Notes under the pieces: model-generated
Databases searched by the model: none
Seen by the model: the letters and a program-made list of their open reading frames with translations, nothing else
Told to the model about the DNA's origin: nothing
Shown: positions 2-10,612 of the stretch, piece after piece
Layout of the letters: the number at the start of each line of letters is the position of its first letter
Numbering within the stretch: position 1 is the first letter of the stretch
IMG/VR virus record: IMGVR_UViG_3300010368_000100
Coordinates: 1 to 24,978 of that record
From: a virus
Reading direction: 5' to 3' (one strand)
Length of the DNA stretch: 24,978 nucleotides
Translations under genes and position numbers: made by a program

Positions 2-580
2 GACCCTGACAGGATCGTATTATTCATGTCCGACATTGACGAGGCGGAAGCCCTTGCTTTGGAAGAGTGTCTGATCATCCAATATGGAAGGATTGATATT
101 GGCACCGGAAAATTATATAACAAGACCAATGGTGGTGAGGGTATATCCGGATATCGTCATACGGATGAGACCAAGCACCGGATGTCCAAATCTCACACCG
201 GTGTTCCGAAGAGCCAGTCCCATAGGGATAATATTTATTGGGCCACTGTGGGTGAGAATAATCCAATGCATGGAAGATTGCACACGGATGAGACCCGAGC
301 AAAGATGTCGGCAGCCCACACCGGAACCACTAAATCACCCGAAACAAGGTCAAAGATGTCGGCTGCTACCTCCGGTGAGAATAATCCAATGTATGGCCGG
401 AGATATAAGAAAACCAGAGATTCGATTAAAAGGTCTGCCCGGGCTCATATGAAGTGCTGTGAAATTGATGGTGTGTTATATGGTTCTGCCAAAGAAGCTG
501 CGAAAACTCTTGGTGTTGGATACAGCACTGTCACCGCCCGATTAAAGAATGTCAAATTCCCGGAATGGAACTTTGTATAA
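2..580 (+). CDS. GIY-YIG/NUMOD3 free-standing homing endonuclease, 3' part (5' end off the window)
   Basis: This is the C-terminal part of a Seg/Mob-like DNA endonuclease. The frame is open to the left edge, so the internal ATG at 26 is probably not the start; the GIY and YIG strands must lie outside. Numbering from that ATG, residues 1-40 look like the end of a GIY-YIG domain: the helix with the likely catalytic Glu (ALEECLIIQYGR, about E13) and the conserved Asn of LYNKTNGGEG (N32). Next come NUMOD3-type DNA-binding repeats: RHTDETKHRMSKSHTG (44-59), a closely similar HTDETRAKMSAAHTG (86-100), a degenerate KSPETRSKMSAATSG (103-117) and two ENNPM(H/Y)GR motifs. The end (about 146-175) resembles a NUMOD1-type helix-turn-helix. 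It is the only plus-strand gene, converges on gp23 and shares the terminator region with it. Such genes are mobile and often sit beside conserved phage genes. The family is clear; the cut site is unknown. Confidence 0.85.
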   Translation, partial: DPDRIVLFMSDIDEAEALALEECLIIQYGRIDIGTGKLYNKTNGGEGISGYRHTDETKHRMSKSHTGVPKSQSHRDNIYWATVGENNPMHGRLHTDETRAKMSAAHTGTTKSPETRSKMSAATSGENNPMYGRRYKKTRDSIKRSARAHMKCCEIDGVLYGSAKEAAKTLGVGYSTVTARLKNVKFPEWNFV

Positions 581-611
581 AAAAAAGAGGCCGGAAAAAT
601 CCGGCCTCTTT
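579..611 (-). terminator. Intrinsic terminator after major capsid gene
   Basis: There is a perfect 8-bp stem, GAGGCCGG (587-594) with CCGGCCTC (601-608), around a 6-base loop, extended by three A-T pairs. Read on the minus strand it is followed by a run of eight T (586 to 579), the classic rho-independent layout. It starts about 25 bases after the gp23 stop codon and so ends the capsid transcript. On the plus strand the same stem is followed only by TTTC, so it would end the endonuclease transcript less well. The endonuclease stop codon (578-580) lies inside the A/T run. Confidence 0.9.
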
Positions 612-634
612 CAGTATAGCTAAGTCTTTGAAAA

Positions 635-1957
635 TTAACCCAGAATGTTCTCAACTCTGAATATGCGAAAGAATTTATTCGACCGTGCATTACCGATACC
701 GTTTTGCGGAGTTGCCTCGGCGAACGGATTGGCGACCATGCCGTAGCGGGTCTTGAATGCCATGATCTGGCTAAGGTTAGCCGGGTCAGTGGCACGCAGT
801 TGCGTGAGCGGAACGTATGGGCAGTAGAAGATACCGGCATCGAAAGGATGCGACCCACGATAACCAACACAGGCATAGTCAACGACCGCATATGGATCGA
901 TGTACACCTTGAGCCAGCCGTTAAGAACGCCAGCAAACGTGTTGCCAGTGTCGTCAACTTTCAGGCCACCCGACTTCATCTCAGGAGTGTAATCAAGAAC
1001 ACCGGCCATGCGCAGGGCAGAGGCAACGTTCGAGGAACACAGGATGAAGTTACCACGGCCACGACGAGTGTCTTTGGCAACGGCATTGGCTTCAAGCTCA
1101 AGCTGCAGAACCATACCCTTGATACGCTCAGCTGACCAGCGGCCATCGGCATCGGCAGTCAGGTTGAACACGCCGGGAACGGCTACGTTTGCAGTCTGGG
1201 CTCCACGTTTCGCACGGGAGGTGATTGTACGAATCATCTCACGGTTGATTTCAGCCAGAATTTCAGGGGCAAGGATGTTTGCCAGTTCGGCATCGGCATC
1301 CAGACCGTGAATGGCCTTGAGGTCTTGGAACAGCTCAAGCGAATAGTTGGCCTTCAATTGGCGGGACACAGCAGTGACGCTGGTCTTTTCGATTGAGAAA
1401 CCCATTTCGCCGTAGGTATCACCCTCTGCCGTGGCAGTGGACATACCGGTGCCGAAGCCGAAGTCATCAGCGAGGTCATCGCCAGTGCCAGCGCCGACGA
1501 GTGATGTAGGCGTACCGCCATCATTCGAACCAGCAGCACCCAGAAGAGACGAAGGATCGCCACCGTGGATACCAGCACCCGAGAAATCGGTGTCAGCTTC
1601 GTTGAAGAGAGCTTCCGTACCGGACATCGAGGTGTAGCGTGACTTCATTGCGAAGATCAGGCCGACTGGACCGTTCATAGGCTGGACACCAGCAAGATCG
1701 AATGCGATCAGGTTAGGCATTGCCCGACGAACGAGGGAGATAAGGATCGGGTCCCAGTTGGCAACGCCAGCATTGGACACGGAGTTGGTTGGAACTGCTT
1801 CGTTCAGTGAACGATCAGCCCGCATGGCAACTTCTTGGTTTTCAAGAACCTGTGCAGTTACCGTCTTGCGGTAATGATCGCCAATGGCCGGAGCGGCATC
1901 AGCATTGAGGACCGGAGCCCACTTTTCGACCAGAAGGTCGGTTGAAGTCATAGACAT
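635..1957 (-). CDS. 23: Major capsid protein gp23
   Basis: This is the main shell protein of the T4-like head, 440 aa (T4 gp23 is 521 aa; cyanophage-type versions are shorter). The N-terminal part has the typical gp23 layout: a removable peptide, then NWDPILISLVRRAMPNLIAF at about 67-86 and VQPMNGPVGLIFAMKSRY just after. The prohead protease normally cuts after (L/I)-x-E; the best site here is L51-N-E53 before A54, which would leave a mature chain of about 387 aa. The chosen ATG at 1957 has GGAAAG nine bases upstream; Met3 is a weaker alternative. It is the last gene of the 68-like/21/22/23 unit, lies 24 bases after gp22, and is followed by a strong terminator. No separate late promoter is seen directly upstream, so the nearest one is that at 4324-4331. 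The identification is firm. Confidence 0.97.
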   Translation of the reverse strand: MSMTSTDLLVEKWAPVLNADAAPAIGDHYRKTVTAQVLENQEVAMRADRSLNEAVPTNSVSNAGVANWDPILISLVRRAMPNLIAFDLAGVQPMNGPVGLIFAMKSRYTSMSGTEALFNEADTDFSGAGIHGGDPSSLLGAAGSNDGGTPTSLVGAGTGDDLADDFGFGTGMSTATAEGDTYGEMGFSIEKTSVTAVSRQLKANYSLELFQDLKAIHGLDADAELANILAPEILAEINREMIRTITSRAKRGAQTANVAVPGVFNLTADADGRWSAERIKGMVLQLELEANAVAKDTRRGRGNFILCSSNVASALRMAGVLDYTPEMKSGGLKVDDTGNTFAGVLNGWLKVYIDPYAVVDYACVGYRGSHPFDAGIFYCPYVPLTQLRATDPANLSQIMAFKTRYGMVANPFAEATPQNGIGNARSNKFFRIFRVENILG

Positions 1958-1981
1958 TTTGTTTTTCTTTCCAGTATGGGT

Positions 1982-3478
1982 TTAGCTAAGGTTTCGGTCT
2001 CGGGTAATTTGCATTGCTTTCAGATAGCCGCTCATCGATGATGAGAGGTCCTGATCGCCATTACCTTCGTTCAGGTTTTCGACCAATGGGTCACTAGGTG
2101 CCTTCGAGGTCTTGGTATTGCCATTGCCAAAGTGGGTTTCTTTCAGACGATTGATCGACACTTCAAATTCTGCGTTGTCCGTATAGTCCACGGACTCAGC
2201 AAGCTTTTGTAGCTTTGATGTCTGGTTCACGCTCAGATCGAACGATGCTTCCGAGATAATCTGGTTGCGCTTCAACTCAACATTTTCCTTGCGGATTGCG
2301 AGAGCTTGGCGAGTAACCTTCTTGATTTTCTCATCCTTGGCTGCTACAGTAGCTTCCAATTGTTCCACCATGTCGATTTTGCCTTCTGGCACTTCGACGT
2401 GATGCTCTGTGAATACCTGCCGGATACCTGCGACAAACGAGTCGGACAGTTGGGTGGCAGCACCTTCACGGATTGCGATCTTGTTCTCTTCGAAATAGTT
2501 CTCTGTGACATAGTCCAGATACTCATCGACCCGAGAAATTAGAGCCTCTTCTTGATGTTCAATCTCTTCCGAGAGTGCCAACGAGAATTGAACTTCGATA
2601 TCTTCTGCGATCAAATTGATCTTTGCAGCGACGGCTGCTTCGAAGATTTCAGTTGCCGCAGCAAGGAATTCTGGTGAAAGCGTTTCATCGATTTCATGCA
2701 GAGCCGCAACTTCGTCCGATAGATCGATCTCAATTGCTTCCATTGCCTTAAGCTTGACATTCTTGCCCTTGAACGATGCATCAACCAGCTTGTTGTTTTG
2801 GTTCATGTAACGCTGCACCAGACCAAGAATTGCCTTGGCTTGTGGCAGGCTGTATTTGGTTGTCTTGTTGCCCGCAGCCTTGACGGAATTAACCGAGTCA
2901 GCCGTGGTAACAAACTTGTCGGCGCCGGTCGAGACAGCACGCTTAGGAAGCTTTGTAGCCTTCTTTGCGCTGTTTTCAGGAGCCACTTGGGCACCATCTT
3001 GTCCAGCCGGAGCATTCAGAGTTTGCATTTTCCCATCCCATGAGGAAGGATCAGCAGATTCGCCAAACATGTCTTCGTCTTCGTCATTTCTAAATTCGAC
3101 TTCGACATCATCGTCGCCTTCATCGGAAAATTCGTCACCGTCTTCTTGGCCCAGTTCATCAGCACCGACTTCATCGTCACCCTCAACACCGGCAATAGCC
3201 GCAAGTTGGGATAGGAGGTCTTCGATCTGATCGATCAGGCCAGCGGCATCGCCATCGTCTTCGCCTTCGAGATCGTCCTCGTCGCTAACGGATTGCCCGT
3301 CAACAGCGCCTTCATCATCGGAAATGCCTTCGGCATCGTCCAGTTGATCAAGGTCGGAAATCTCATCTTCATCATCGAGATCGACGCCGGATACACCTGT
3401 ATCGGAATCGGCCCCAAAGATGTCAACATCGGCTTCGTCATCCACATTCGGATTGCGCTTATGTGCTCTAGGATTCAT
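1982..3478 (-). CDS. 22: Prohead core scaffold protein gp22
   Basis: This is the main internal scaffold of the prohead, on which gp23 assembles and which gp21 then degrades. At 498 aa it is much longer than T4 gp22 (269 aa). Residues about 13-147 are extremely acidic and low in complexity (runs of D and E with G, S, A), probably disordered. A short basic stretch follows (KKATKLPKR). The rest is mostly helical, with coiled-coil character around the segment DMVEQLEATVAAKDEKIKKV. The C-terminus, SMSGYLKAMQITRDRNLS, resembles the conserved end of gp22 proteins. It lies between gp21 (14-base gap) and gp23, the T4 gene order. The call rests on context, composition and the C-terminal motif. The acidic N-terminal extension is the unusual feature. 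Confidence 0.9.
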   Translation of the reverse strand: MNPRAHKRNPNVDDEADVDIFGADSDTGVSGVDLDDEDEISDLDQLDDAEGISDDEGAVDGQSVSDEDDLEGEDDGDAAGLIDQIEDLLSQLAAIAGVEGDDEVGADELGQEDGDEFSDEGDDDVEVEFRNDEDEDMFGESADPSSWDGKMQTLNAPAGQDGAQVAPENSAKKATKLPKRAVSTGADKFVTTADSVNSVKAAGNKTTKYSLPQAKAILGLVQRYMNQNNKLVDASFKGKNVKLKAMEAIEIDLSDEVAALHEIDETLSPEFLAAATEIFEAAVAAKINLIAEDIEVQFSLALSEEIEHQEEALISRVDEYLDYVTENYFEENKIAIREGAATQLSDSFVAGIRQVFTEHHVEVPEGKIDMVEQLEATVAAKDEKIKKVTRQALAIRKENVELKRNQIISEASFDLSVNQTSKLQKLAESVDYTDNAEFEVSINRLKETHFGNGNTKTSKAPSDPLVENLNEGNGDQDLSSSMSGYLKAMQITRDRNLS

Positions 3479-3492
3479 TGTATTTCCTTTTC

Positions 3493-4134
3493 TTAATCTT
3501 GAGACATTCCAGAGAGGAACTGTCTCAAGCTATTAAGCTTTCGAGTCATAAGTTCAGTCTCCGTTTCTTCTTCAATGCGCTTAGCTTTGAAAATCCCATC
3601 GGTGTCCTTGGCCCACTCCACGCCTTCCATAATCCCATTAACAAATGCGTTATGCGCTGAGGGGTCTTGAACAATATCGACGGTATTCAAAAGGAAGTCA
3701 TTTCCAACGTAGGAAACACCCTCCTGCTGCGTAAGGCTGCCCATACCACGACTTGAAACGCCTAGTTGGACACCACCTTCAAGAAGACCTTGGACGATCT
3801 TCCCACACGGGGTATTCAATACTAGGGCTTTTCCAATCACATCATCACCTTTCCATGAAAGTTCCATGATGCGATGGGAAACTCTGTCCATATTGATGGT
3901 CGGGCCTTCGGGGTGATCTAGTTCACCAACAGCTCGACCAGTACGGACTTGATTTGTATTATATGCGTCAACCGCAGATTCTAGAATACTCTTCTTGTAA
4001 ACACGGCCATTGCGGTTCTTCTTCTCGGCTTGCATAAACACGCCTTCGATGTAGAACTTCTTTTCGCCAGACTTAGCGTCATTCTCGGTCAAGACCTCGA
4101 TGCCACTATTCATATGTTCACAGATTAGTTTCAT
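3493..4134 (-). CDS. 21: Prohead core protease gp21
   Basis: This is the serine protease that matures the T4-like prohead. It cuts gp23, the scaffold and itself after (L/I)-x-E sites. Its 213 aa match the family size. The conserved blocks are all visible: FYIEGVFMQAEKKNRNGRVY (27-46), GELDHPEGPTI (70-80) with the likely catalytic His74, LGVSSRGMGSL (124-134) with the nucleophile Ser127 or Ser128, and VDIVQDPSAHNAFV (152-165) with the likely Asp157. The start codon overlaps the stop of the small core gene upstream (ATGA), which suggests translational coupling. The tail after about residue 185 is charged and probably lost on self-cleavage. The identification is firm. Confidence 0.95.
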   Translation of the reverse strand: MKLICEHMNSGIEVLTENDAKSGEKKFYIEGVFMQAEKKNRNGRVYKKSILESAVDAYNTNQVRTGRAVGELDHPEGPTINMDRVSHRIMELSWKGDDVIGKALVLNTPCGKIVQGLLEGGVQLGVSSRGMGSLTQQEGVSYVGNDFLLNTVDIVQDPSAHNAFVNGIMEGVEWAKDTDGIFKAKRIEEETETELMTRKLNSLRQFLSGMSQD

Positions 4135-4301
4135 TTCGGTGCGATCTTTGCAAATAGCTCTTGTGCGACGTCAACACGGACGTCATGCATTCTGTCTGCG
4201 CTCTTTTCCAAATGAATTTCAGTGAAGGTGCGCTCGGCATCCTCGAACTGCTCTTTCTGGATGAAGCCAATTAGCTCCCGAACTTGTTCACGATTTGACA
4301 T
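4131..4301 (-). CDS. Small prohead core protein (gp68-like), 56 aa
   Basis: This is a short gene that a 60-residue cut-off would miss. It runs from an ATG at 4301 to a TGA that overlaps the gp21 start. A good Shine-Dalgarno sequence (AAGGA, about seven bases before ATG) and a perfect late-promoter element 22 bases upstream support it. The product begins MSNREQVRELIGFIQKEQFE and ends with VDVAQELFAKIAPK. The pattern (an N-terminal helix, a middle E-x-H/M-x-x-K helix, a final VAQELF) matches the tiny core proteins coded just before gp21 in cyanophage-like T4 relatives, usually labelled gp67/gp68-like. Its likely role is in the internal core that fixes head length. Existence is well supported; assignment to gp68 rather than gp67 rests on remembered family patterns. 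Confidence 0.8.
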   Translation of the reverse strand: MSNREQVRELIGFIQKEQFEDAERTFTEIHLEKSADRMHDVRVDVAQELFAKIAPK

Positions 4302-4323: not shown

Positions 4324-4331
4324 TATTTATA
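4324..4331 (-). promoter_or_regulatory. T4-type late promoter TATAAATA before the head genes
   Basis: The minus strand reads TATAAATA, the exact T4 late -10 element recognised by gp55-type sigma with the sliding clamp. It contains the TAA stop codon (4329-4327) of the 698-aa gene. Transcription would start about 4317, leaving a leader of about 16 bases with the AAGGA ribosome site of the 56-aa gene. It would drive the unit 68-like, 21, 22 and 23 down to the terminator at 579-611. Confidence 0.8.
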
Positions 4332-6423
4332 GTGATTTGATTTTCTGGGAATACTGTTTGAATGACTCAAGTGCAGCGCTGTGCACCTTCCCGGTCACGG
4401 CATGATAGACAAGCTCAACAGCATCTCGATTAGTAACATGGGTGCCAGCCTCGCCCTGAAAAAGGAATGTGGCCAGAGCCTCGATTTCAGCGGTCTGCTC
4501 AAAAGTTGCACTACCCATGTGATAGGTATCAAACCCAGAATTGGATGGCACCCAATCCAGAATGTCACCCAGAGTATCACTGAGCGGTCGTGGATTATCG
4601 TCACCACCATCGTAATCATCAATGGCGTCCCGAATATTTCCACGGTGCGCTTCGAATTTGATGTATGATGATTGGGTTGGGTACTCTTCCTCAAAGAATG
4701 ACGAGAAGTGCCCGCCTATGGAGCCCACAGCAAGCCCGACATATTCGTGATAGGCGGCCCTGAACCGTTCTTCAAATACCCAATCAGGCACCCTGAATTT
4801 GGTACGTTTGACAATCTGTTCGATGATGTGAGATTTAGCTTCCTCATCGTCAATGAATTCGAACTCTTGTCGGCCCATAACAGTCGGAAATTTTTTGGCG
4901 AGGGCGGCGTTGAGCTTCGCATCGTTCTTGCGCAGTGCCTGTCCCACAATCGTTTCAGAAGCATGTTTCACGCTGAAATGTTCATGATAGAATGGAAAAA
5001 TATCCGCCTCGAAGTCAAGTGGCCCGCTCTCATTCGCCGGGATTTCCAGCATCTCGCCCAGTCGCATGATATCGTCATGCGATGGATTGCTCCCGTGCTT
5101 CTTCTCCGATCTCACAACGATGTCATTGAGCATATTTTGGATGTCATCCGAGACTTCTGACATAAGGTCTTGGCAATCGAGGGTGGTTTCCATTACAATG
5201 AAATCTCGGTTCACAGACTCGATGGAATTATTGTTGAGATACACTTCGGTGCGAAGCCATGTCTCGAATTCATCCGCAACATCGGAGTCCCCACCGGCGA
5301 TCCATCTGTCCACGATGGGCGCCCCGTTTGTCTGGAAATCAAAGTCCGGCTTCCCGGCCATGATTTCCTGTTGCTGGTCTTCTGTGAAGTCTTCCCATGT
5401 CCAATTTTCCTCAACAACCCATCGTGGATCGCCCATGCCCCGGATGCCCCGTAGAAGCATCAAGTCAACCAAATATTTCCCATACTTTTCGGCGACGGGC
5501 TTCTTGTTTCCTCGGCCTTTTATTTCACCGATGATACCGCCATCCTCCTTGATCACGGTCACATGTGGCATGCGCCACCGGTTTCCTGTTGCGTCTGTTT
5601 TCATTGTGCTGAGTGATATGAGAATATCGTCACTATTTTGCCGGGGTTCATTTCCACAATGTCCCATGGCCTCTTGTTCGGCACTACAATATGCCTTATC
5701 CGTGGACACCCACGCCATCTTTTTATCGGGGTATTCTTTGAGGACCTTTACGTCATTCTCACCCTCAAGCTTGATCCAGCCTTTCCATGTCGCATTATAT
5801 GCATTCTCAAGTGCATTATGGAGCATGCCGTATGATAGTGATGGATCGAATGTGATGGCATCAACCGCAACCACACCAGCCTTGGCAAATTTCGACAGAC
5901 TGTTGATCTCATCGGTCAGACGCTCAGTTCCGGAATGCCAGAATAGCAAGCGGATGGTATTCCGATATGAATCTTCACCCATGGCCTTCTGCATTTTGCG
6001 AGAAAATCCATACTGCAGGATGAACCCCAGTGCCTTTACGACTCTTTCATTCTTTTCGATGGTATAGCCGCCGGACATCCCGCCAATCGCATCCCGCATC
6101 GCAATAGCAAGAAATCCAGATTTCAGATATTTGACGGCCCAGACGATTTGATCTTCTTTGGGAAATTTTAGCTTGAGAGACTTTGTCTGGGCATCCAGCC
6201 ATGTTCGATTCATTTCGAGTTTGCGAGTAAGCTCTTTCACGTTCCCTTCGCTGTTGGTGGCATCTCCACCACCCTGTTCCAGATAGTTGACAATTTTTCG
6301 AGCAAGGACCGGTGCAGAGTCGATGTCGGCCATCATCTGAGGGATATTGGCAGCTTCCGAGAAGAATGCCATTTGCCCGCTCTGCATGATGGCAGATATT
6401 TCACGAAGCAAGTTGTCGGACAT
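4327..6423 (-). CDS. Unknown 698-aa protein with PcfJ-like motif, between portal and protease genes
   Basis: I do not recognise a named T4 gene here. T4 has only the small genes 67 and 68 at this place. The most distinctive segment is about residues 235-325: W-V-S-T-D-K-A-Y-C, then MGHCGN (His255-Cys256), then ILISLSTM, MPHVTVIKEDGGIIGEIKGR, and GRGNKKP (around Gly305). This order (HC(G/V), SLR/SLS, P-x-x-T(V/I), G-x-I-x-(Q/E)-I-(K/R)-G-(K/R)-G-N) resembles the core of PcfJ-like proteins, a family first named in conjugative plasmids and of unclear function. The rest is rich in acidic and aromatic residues, without a signal peptide or membrane segment. The start overlaps the portal stop codon (TAATG), so it is translationally coupled to gp20 and expressed late. 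It may be a head-internal or injected protein, or a processing enzyme, but that is inference. Confidence 0.6.
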   Translation of the reverse strand: MSDNLLREISAIMQSGQMAFFSEAANIPQMMADIDSAPVLARKIVNYLEQGGGDATNSEGNVKELTRKLEMNRTWLDAQTKSLKLKFPKEDQIVWAVKYLKSGFLAIAMRDAIGGMSGGYTIEKNERVVKALGFILQYGFSRKMQKAMGEDSYRNTIRLLFWHSGTERLTDEINSLSKFAKAGVVAVDAITFDPSLSYGMLHNALENAYNATWKGWIKLEGENDVKVLKEYPDKKMAWVSTDKAYCSAEQEAMGHCGNEPRQNSDDILISLSTMKTDATGNRWRMPHVTVIKEDGGIIGEIKGRGNKKPVAEKYGKYLVDLMLLRGIRGMGDPRWVVEENWTWEDFTEDQQQEIMAGKPDFDFQTNGAPIVDRWIAGGDSDVADEFETWLRTEVYLNNNSIESVNRDFIVMETTLDCQDLMSEVSDDIQNMLNDIVVRSEKKHGSNPSHDDIMRLGEMLEIPANESGPLDFEADIFPFYHEHFSVKHASETIVGQALRKNDAKLNAALAKKFPTVMGRQEFEFIDDEEAKSHIIEQIVKRTKFRVPDWVFEERFRAAYHEYVGLAVGSIGGHFSSFFEEEYPTQSSYIKFEAHRGNIRDAIDDYDGGDDNPRPLSDTLGDILDWVPSNSGFDTYHMGSATFEQTAEIEALATFLFQGEAGTHVTNRDAVELVYHAVTGKVHSAALESFKQYSQKIKSL

Positions 6424-8216
6424 TATCGTGTTTCTTCCTCTTCACCGAGATCGGTATCAGTTTCTGCGTCCGCACCAAGTTCGGTAGCTGCGCCCTCTGG
6501 ATCGTCCAACGGAACTTCATTCTCGTCAGGTAGGTCTTCGCCCATTCCCGGATCGCCGAGATCGCCTTCGAACCCGCCGCCCTCTGGACCCGGACCCCCG
6601 CCGCCTTCAAGATCGGCATCATCCGGATTCGGAAGGCCGTCATTGTTGAGGGCTTCTCCACGGATTTGGTGCTTAATTTCCTTGATCTGCTCTTCGGATT
6701 GGTGTAGGATATGGCGCCGGATATACTCTTTCGAGAAATATGTGCCTTGGTGTTCCTTCGCCTCATTGAGGGTCTGGATGCGTTCACGCAGAATTTCAGC
6801 TTCCTTCAATTCAGAGAAGAAGTTGTCCCGAGCATAGTCAAACATGATCTCCTCGCCCAAGTCTTCCCATTCCTCACTCGTAAGAATGCCGGTAAGGATA
6901 AGCTGGTTGCGCAGGAGCTGCTTGAATAGTTCCGCAAACTTTGTGCGAAGCTGATCGATGAATTTCTGAAACTTGACTTCGTCCCGATTGATTTCGGTCG
7001 AACGCCCGAGCGAGAAGCCGGACTCATTATCCAGACGGCTCATGGGCACATTCATGGAATTGAGAAGCTGCTTCTTGAAATACAAGATGTCTTCGATCTC
7101 GCCAAGGTTTGTACCACCCGGTAGATTGGAAACCTGTGCACCGCCGCCGGTTGATGTGCGAGGCAGCCAGAAGTCTTCGAGCATATGCATGTGCTTGCGG
7201 TCGCTGGTAACATCACCGGTCGCCGCATCATATGTGAGCTTGTTGCGATATTTCGCCATCAGCTGTGACATATACTGTTGACCCGCAACCTTTGACATGT
7301 CGCTGACGTCAACCGAAAAGATGCGCCTCTCGGGTGCACGGGCGAGTCGATAGATGACAAGTGAATCTTCCATCATCCGGAGCTGGTTAATCGCCCGGAG
7401 AGATTTATGCAGATATGACAGATTGTATCGACGGGTTTGATCCATGATCCCGGATGTGATATAGGCAACCGAGTCCTTCGCAATTTTCAGGCCGTTGACA
7501 GCCGAACCACCGCCGCCCTGTCCCATCCCCATGGAGCCGCCGCCTTGCGATGATGAGCTTCCGGTGAAGCCGTCATCCGAGTAGATGAAATATTCGTCCC
7601 ATCCAGAGATGAGCTTAGCGCCGGTACGAGCATCTTGCTCCTCAACGACTTCCTTGACTTTCTGGATTTTCAGTGGATTGATTGGGCGAATTTCCTGAAT
7701 GCCACGCTTGGGGTTGTTCAGGTCGATCACAATGTGATATGCAAGGCGGGCATCGATATACCAGCGCCGAAAGATTTCGTGTCCATTCTTTCGAAAGTTC
7801 ATGAGGCGCATGATCTTCTCGAACTCATCAACAATCTTCTTCTTGACACCATCCGATAGATCGGTATGGTCAAGGTTTAGGGTGATCGGCATGTCATTAT
7901 CATTGGCGACAATCGCCTCACTGATAATCTCTTCGATTGCCCGGTCAGTTTCTGGATGCATTGCTGCATTCCGGTATTTTACGATCAGGTCCCGCTCACT
8001 CTGGAACTGGTCTCCTCGAACATCAAGGGTCTGCCCGGTAAATCCACCGGCAGTTGTGATGATCGCAGATTCAGTCTCCTCATGTGGAGGGACAAACGAC
8101 ATGACCTTTGCGTCAGCCGGATCGTCATTATGCGCACGGATTTCGTGTCCGAATAGGGTGAAGCCCTTGAGCTGACGCTTTTCTTCTTCGGTTTGTGGTA
8201 CATTTGGAGATAGCAT
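6423..8216 (-). CDS. 20: Portal vertex protein gp20
   Basis: This protein forms the dodecameric ring at one head vertex through which DNA enters and to which the neck attaches. It is 597 aa against 524 in T4. Typical portal blocks are present: MHPETDRAIEEIISEAIV near residue 86, the wing/stem region with DSLVIYRLARAPERRIFSVD, QYMSQLMAKYRNKLTYDAAT, the LEDFWLPR block followed by GGTNLGEIEDILYFKKQLL, and MNVPMSRLDNESGFSLGRS. A Gly/Ser-rich insert (SSSSQGGGSMGMGQGGGGS) lies at about 218-236. The last 60 or so residues are a Gly/Pro/Asp/Glu-rich, very acidic tail that T4 gp20 does not share to this extent. A ribosome site (AGGT, eight bases before ATG) is present. A C(UUCG)G hairpin separates it from gp19. 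Its stop overlaps the start of the 698-aa gene. Confidence 0.95.
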   Translation of the reverse strand: MLSPNVPQTEEEKRQLKGFTLFGHEIRAHNDDPADAKVMSFVPPHEETESAIITTAGGFTGQTLDVRGDQFQSERDLIVKYRNAAMHPETDRAIEEIISEAIVANDNDMPITLNLDHTDLSDGVKKKIVDEFEKIMRLMNFRKNGHEIFRRWYIDARLAYHIVIDLNNPKRGIQEIRPINPLKIQKVKEVVEEQDARTGAKLISGWDEYFIYSDDGFTGSSSSQGGGSMGMGQGGGGSAVNGLKIAKDSVAYITSGIMDQTRRYNLSYLHKSLRAINQLRMMEDSLVIYRLARAPERRIFSVDVSDMSKVAGQQYMSQLMAKYRNKLTYDAATGDVTSDRKHMHMLEDFWLPRTSTGGGAQVSNLPGGTNLGEIEDILYFKKQLLNSMNVPMSRLDNESGFSLGRSTEINRDEVKFQKFIDQLRTKFAELFKQLLRNQLILTGILTSEEWEDLGEEIMFDYARDNFFSELKEAEILRERIQTLNEAKEHQGTYFSKEYIRRHILHQSEEQIKEIKHQIRGEALNNDGLPNPDDADLEGGGGPGPEGGGFEGDLGDPGMGEDLPDENEVPLDDPEGAATELGADAETDTDLGEEEETR

Positions 8217-10487: not shown

Positions 10488-10612
10488 TTAGGATTTATCC
10501 TCTTTTTATTTGGAAAATTACAAGGGACATTATATGGGTATTCACAATCACATGTATTTAGTAAACCCGAGCATTCTCGCATTATGATGAGGATCACCTA
10601 TTCTATTTATAC
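10488..10612 (-). other. Intergenic leader of gp18 (125 bp)
   Basis: This is the longest non-coding stretch in the window. It is AT-rich and contains the late promoter at its gp17 end and the GAGGA ribosome site at its gp18 end. The minus strand also holds a TATAAT hexamer (inside CCCATATAATGTCCC), without a convincing -35 box. A small CGAG-AATG-CTCG hairpin and a GGAT-AA-ATCC mini-palindrome next to the ribosome site are too short to claim as regulators. No open frame is seen. Confidence 0.5.
10604..10611 (-). promoter_or_regulatory. T4-type late promoter TATAAATA before gp18
   Basis: The minus strand reads TATAAATA, one base after the TAG stop codon of gp17 (10615-10613). It matches the T4 late consensus exactly. 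Transcription would start near 10597 and give a leader of about 110 bases before the gp18 ATG. It would drive the 18-19-20-698-aa unit. Confidence 0.8.

Follow-up and report, generated by a model that had tools for sequence, protein, structure and literature searches.

The gene inserted between the portal and prohead protease genes of this viral DNA (gene X, encoding the 698-aa protein P0001) specifies a distant homologue of the PcfJ proteins. With modest confidence, its product is best explained as a late-made effector that would be packaged in the head and ejected, carrying a PcfJ-like and probably GNAT-like domain. The window, i.e., the whole stretch of DNA that was analysed, measures 24,978 bases and comes from an uncultivated virus. 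The gene, its operon position, its homology to PcfJ and the enrichment of targeting N-termini and late promoters over its family were all computed directly.

Read on the minus strand (4327-6423), like all the neighbouring head genes described here, X forms an uninterrupted frame of 698 codons. Its ATG, preceded by a ribosome-site-like AGGAAG, shares one base (6423) with the stop codon of the gp20 portal gene in a TAATG overlap (gp20, 6423-8216; PF07230 (Portal_T4), 2e-162). On the other side lie a gp67-like core ORF of 56 aa (4131-4301), which overlaps the start of gp21 and matches the gp67-like ORF of the related locus L082 (E 0.001), then the gp21 prohead protease, the presumed processing enzyme (3493-4134; PF03420 (Peptidase_S77), 4e-40), the gp22 scaffold (1982-3478; PF25623, T4_CASP, which also confirms the neighbours) and the gp23 major capsid protein (635-1957; Gp23 match). 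This last carries one gp21-type site, LNE/A, at residue 53 (the slash marks the cut). Genes 18, 19 and 17 and those of the tail sheath stabiliser, neck and baseplate are found upstream of the X-portal pair. The base composition of X does not look foreign (GC 0.488 and GC3 0.536, inside the range of its neighbours), and the window contains no second member of the X family. Just beyond gp23, on the opposite strand (26-580, plus), a homing-endonuclease-like ORF carries four NUMOD3 motifs and an I-TevI DNA-binding domain.

The first-pass annotation had described a 698-aa gene coupled to the portal gene by TAATG and lying between the portal and protease genes, which the ORF and its neighbours confirm. 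All the motifs that it had picked out around residues 235-325 were found: MGHCGN (253-258), SLS (270-272), MPHVTVI (285-291) and GEIKGRGNKKP (299-309). The invariant form of the first, AMGHCGN, covers residues 252-258 (5650-5670, minus strand). Its placing of the gene in the late unit is also supported, on the basis of the T4-type late promoters. The window contains just two copies of the T4 late-promoter core TATAAATA, where 0.3 would be expected, both on the minus strand: before gp18 (10604-10611), upstream of the 18-19-20-X unit, and overlapping the end of X (4324-4331), ahead of the gp67-like ORF and genes 21, 22 and 23. This placement indicates that X closes the 18-19-20-X late unit. The second promoter would drive the 56-aa gp67-like ORF and then 21-22-23, and X lies at the seam between two late units. 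With these two promoters and its coupling to gp20, X is predicted to be expressed late.

A survey of the 20-21 interval bears on the role of X in the head. Among 80 related loci, gp20 and gp21 are both readable in 63, where a median of 437 bp (216-3627) separates the portal stop from the gp21 start, versus 2288 bp in the window. X is absent from all 63. The interval exceeds 600 bp in nine of them; several of these accommodate additional, unrelated genes, for instance one of 451 aa in L078, five in L079, and collagen-like and leucine-rich-like ones in L072. Since X is absent and unrelated genes are present, this interval can be viewed as a tolerant slot and close relatives as able to assemble heads without X, whose role in assembly is therefore unlikely to be essential. 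Between gp20 and gp21, L072:2385-5557 and L079:2538-5804 carry further large cargo in the form of collagen-like, leucine-rich-like and fibre-like genes. A replacement of the core genes by X was considered and dropped, as a separate gp67-like ORF is kept beside gp21; in the same way, X does not correspond to gp67/gp68, the small, acidic core component encoded between 20 and 21, being 698 aa long with the gp67-like ORF separate. It is improbable that X is a morphogenesis factor, i.e., a portal-associated or core protein helping to build or size the head or to seat the DNA. The translational coupling to the portal gene, the long helical N-terminal region of the predicted structure and the relatives adjoining gp21 or portal genes (L086, L098) would fit such a factor, but its absence from the 63 loci, the retained gp67-like ORF and the relatives of giant phages, which are scattered, multi-copy and in many cases separated from the portal by tens of kilobases or more, argue against it. 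The absence from related loci and the mostly portal-distant relatives likewise count against the first-pass suggestion of a part in capsid building.

The homology to PcfJ is distant and well supported, at a level that does not reach Pfam-threshold membership. The plasmid PcfJ proteins retrieved for comparison included that of pCF10; eight genuine ones were used, three of which were scanned and confirmed as PF14284. Aligned by hhalign with the PcfJ domain, a profile of 77 X cores matches over 77 columns with a probability of 91.9% (P 6.9e-7), against 0.1% for the reversed-profile control. In a Foldseek search of BFVD, the top match of the X model is a protein equal in length to SCTP-2 gp31 (735 aa), followed by several PcfJ-like proteins of phages; these latter are found at E 8e-4 to 6e-3 (prob 0.72-1.0) with low global TM-scores, so that the likeness of fold is limited to the core. 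P0001 has no PF14284 match over Pfam's gathering score, and only two of 54 relatives reach PF14284 (best E 0.1). Thus, the PcfJ likeness proposed at first pass holds in profile-profile and fold comparisons and not in the Pfam search. Large proteins encoded beside X genes in L088 and L164 match PF14284 at 0.04-0.07. No literature on PcfJ function was found. On Enterococcus-type plasmids (L190-L193), PcfJ is coupled to anti-CRISPR genes of the AcrIIA9 (PcfK) family, which gives a hint of a role of PcfJ in counter-defence. No PcfK/AcrIIA9 partner is present beside X, whose neighbours are gp20 and gp67-like/gp21.

The core of X probably has a GNAT-like fold, according to the predicted structure. 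The AlphaFold model built on a 67-sequence alignment has a mean pLDDT of 84, with the core above 90 (pLDDT 36 for a single-sequence run). Residues 214-366 form the conserved core domain (5326-5784, minus strand), whose best structural alignments are with acetyltransferases of the GNAT type: HAT1 (Z 6.6), ESCO2 (6.3) and MYST enzymes (about 5). Such enzymes dominate its structural match list, and a best Z of 6.6 should be read with the reserve that values below 8 are compatible with a mere common arrangement. The order strand-helix-three strands-helix-short strand fits the GNAT topology, and the invariant KGRxNxKP segment would lie at the strand-helix turn where GNATs bind the CoA pyrophosphate. 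No sequence match of X to GNAT families was found, and Foldseek of the model against the PDB returned nothing at E 0.001.

Sequence searches of Pfam, PHROGs, NCBIfam, PADLOC and the PDB with P0001 gave no match, and the only hit in 50,697 annotated phage records came from Salicola phage SCTP-2 (gp31). A direct protein scan of viral contigs with X found no close relative. A DNA scan of IMG/VR for AMGHCGN picked up 103 stretches. Clear relatives are encoded in about 90 of them and follow the pattern W..L....C..E..AMGHCGN...ILSLR...PHLTFI..GEMKGR.N.KP..YHPYI..LL. Protein patterns found no family match in bacterial genome contigs, and a motif scan covering 84,980 genomes of bacteria and archaea yielded 30 places, with strong members encoded in L282 and L284 only; this indicates that the clade is essentially viral. 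Many relatives are carried by contigs of 200-560 kb, sometimes as tandem genes or in several copies within one genome (L105, L128, L143). Among 50 contigs tested, 25 encode a T4 portal and 24 an S77 prohead protease. A second subgroup (KPNRHWFGLGVG...; L101, L102, L115, L121) has repeat C-termini (LRV/HEAT, phrog_20647), one member with a NUDIX N-terminus; the L101 contig yielded neither a T4 portal nor an S77 protease.

The genes surrounding these relatives are varied. Some relatives directly precede gp21 (L086) or terminase (L093, L103). Those nearest to P0001 (L130, L145, L150) are coupled to, and come after, a gp15-like tail sheath stabiliser gene, which raises the possibility of a tail or baseplate component; this is very improbable, given that other members lie by head genes or elsewhere and that no tail domain was recognised in X. 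Some members are parts of larger proteins. For example, polyvalent proteins of 2975 and 3087 aa (L221:1800-10724, in a 332-kb contig, and L237:3546-12806) combine three or four ART-PolyVal domains, GNAT and one or two X domains with nucleoside deoxyribosyltransferase or 2'-5' RNA ligase domains, and L123:2941-5742 fuses a head maturation protease-like N-terminus to an X domain and HEAT repeats.

The packaging reading draws on the N-termini of the family. T4 brings its internal proteins and Alt into the prohead core by means of short N-terminal propeptides that are removed by gp21; this protease cuts after L/I-X-E, and the capsid-targeting propeptides are 10-19 residues long (PMC9026906). N-termini such as MRAKEFLLE/AQNYEAMF, MNFKQWLLLTE/S and MIKFEEYFNILNE/S are found in the X family. 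The motif [LI]xE[AGSNTVQ] occurs within residues 5-32 in 47 of 78 members, against 91 of 555 other ORFs from their loci (P 2e-15). TAAATA, the core of T4 late promoters, lies at most 40 nt upstream in 29 of 78 versus 106 of 555 (P 4e-4). Both P values count family members as independent although they are related. The reverse-complement control of TAAATA is flat (5/78 versus 32/555). Furthermore, in 27 of 82 members the cleavage site is followed after 2-9 residues by a conserved Y..MF-type motif, against 0.8 expected in shuffles. Capsid-targeting-type N-termini are borne by 20 of 25 members from protease-positive contigs and by six of 13 from large protease-negative ones, a modest difference (p 0.04); some members lacking the S77 protease also lack a targeting N-terminus, and these were counted against packaging. 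NUDIX and amidoligase enzymes are among the neighbours of X genes with similar N-termini. Two small ORFs of X-carrying loci (L084:4445-4957, L113:1157-1888) also have capsid-targeting-like N-termini, with LYHGA/VYHQT motifs reminiscent of ADP-ribosyltransferases and no Pfam match.

For P0001 itself, alignment with its nearest relatives (L150/L130/L145) places the equivalent of the family site at FFSE/AANIPQMM, that is F-S-E/A at residues 21-24, which is non-canonical in having F where gp21 prefers L/I. The candidate propeptide, deduced from this alignment and the family pattern, would cover residues 1-23 (MSDNLLREISAIMQSGQMAFFSE; 6355-6423, minus strand). A canonical LLRE ends at residue 8 (L-R-E, 6-8), a match of a kind that roughly one control ORF in four also has. 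From these comparisons, the packaging case appears good for the family and suggestive for P0001. The main rival is that X is an intracellular late protein, or a selfish cargo gene hitchhiking in the variable slot of the late operon, that is not in the virion. The variability of the 20-21 slot in relatives (L072, L079, L078) and the only partly canonical propeptide of P0001 agree with it. It is rather unlikely in view of the family-wide enrichment of targeting N-termini and late promoters, the cleavage motif at a fixed position and the polyvalent and head-protease fusions.

Packaging and ejection, as well as an enzymatic activity and its target, are what we infer for X from this body of evidence. 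Under the favoured explanation, X would be head cargo encoded by the last gene of the 18-19-20-X late unit, its N-terminal propeptide would place it in the prohead core, and gp21 would cut off this propeptide during maturation. Mature X would then be ejected with the DNA, as T4 IPI-III and Alt are. In the new host, its core domain, a PcfJ homologue with a probable acyltransferase-type fold, could modify or bind a host target, the most likely outcome being that a defence is blunted or metabolism is redirected early in infection. Many relatives from giant phages have, judging by their sequences, the look of cargo that would be packed into the head and carried into the host cell. Among the roles proposed at first pass, an injected protein is thus favoured by the family N-termini, the late promoters and the polyvalent members.

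PcfJ-like proteins are spread over plasmids and phages and have no established function. The X family ties their fold to a probable head-packaged cargo in giant T4-like phages; it adds a phage-specific clade with a testable role to a known fold, and supplies a predicted fold and invariant residues. More tentatively, the AMGHCGN clade could be a phage-specific, GNAT-derived enzyme domain sharing ancestry with plasmid PcfJ, within an effector module "delivered with the DNA" that would be common to conjugative plasmids and giant phages and loaded into T4-type heads through capsid-targeting propeptides.

Like PcfJ-like proteins (PF14284; those of pCF10 and phages), X has a core in the order HC motif, R strand, T/E strand, G+xN loop and helix. 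Unlike PcfJ (HCVxS...QxxGxxN), its clade has AMGHCGN...GEMKGRxNxKP...YHPYI, and X, with its 698 aa, differs at both termini and lacks the AcrIIA9/PcfK partner. With T4 IPI-III and Alt, it shares late genes and, within its family, N-termini resembling capsid-targeting propeptides ending in L/I-X-E; however, it has no recognised sequence relation to the mature proteins and is much larger than the IPs, and its packaging is a prediction from sequence. Polyvalent proteins of phages and conjugative elements are delivered with the DNA (PMC5512222, whose main text does not name PcfJ). L221 and L237 resemble them in linking X domains to ART-PolyVal, GNAT and nucleotide-acting domains, whereas P0001 has one recognised domain only. 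Gp31 of Salicola phage SCTP-2, unlike X, lies about 50 kb from the portal gene, but this 735-aa protein has its core in common with X (32% over 149 aa), an N-terminus MRLNNLFE/S, TAAATA upstream and T4-like head genes in the same genome, and SCTP-2 is a cultured phage that allows a direct look at packaging and processing.
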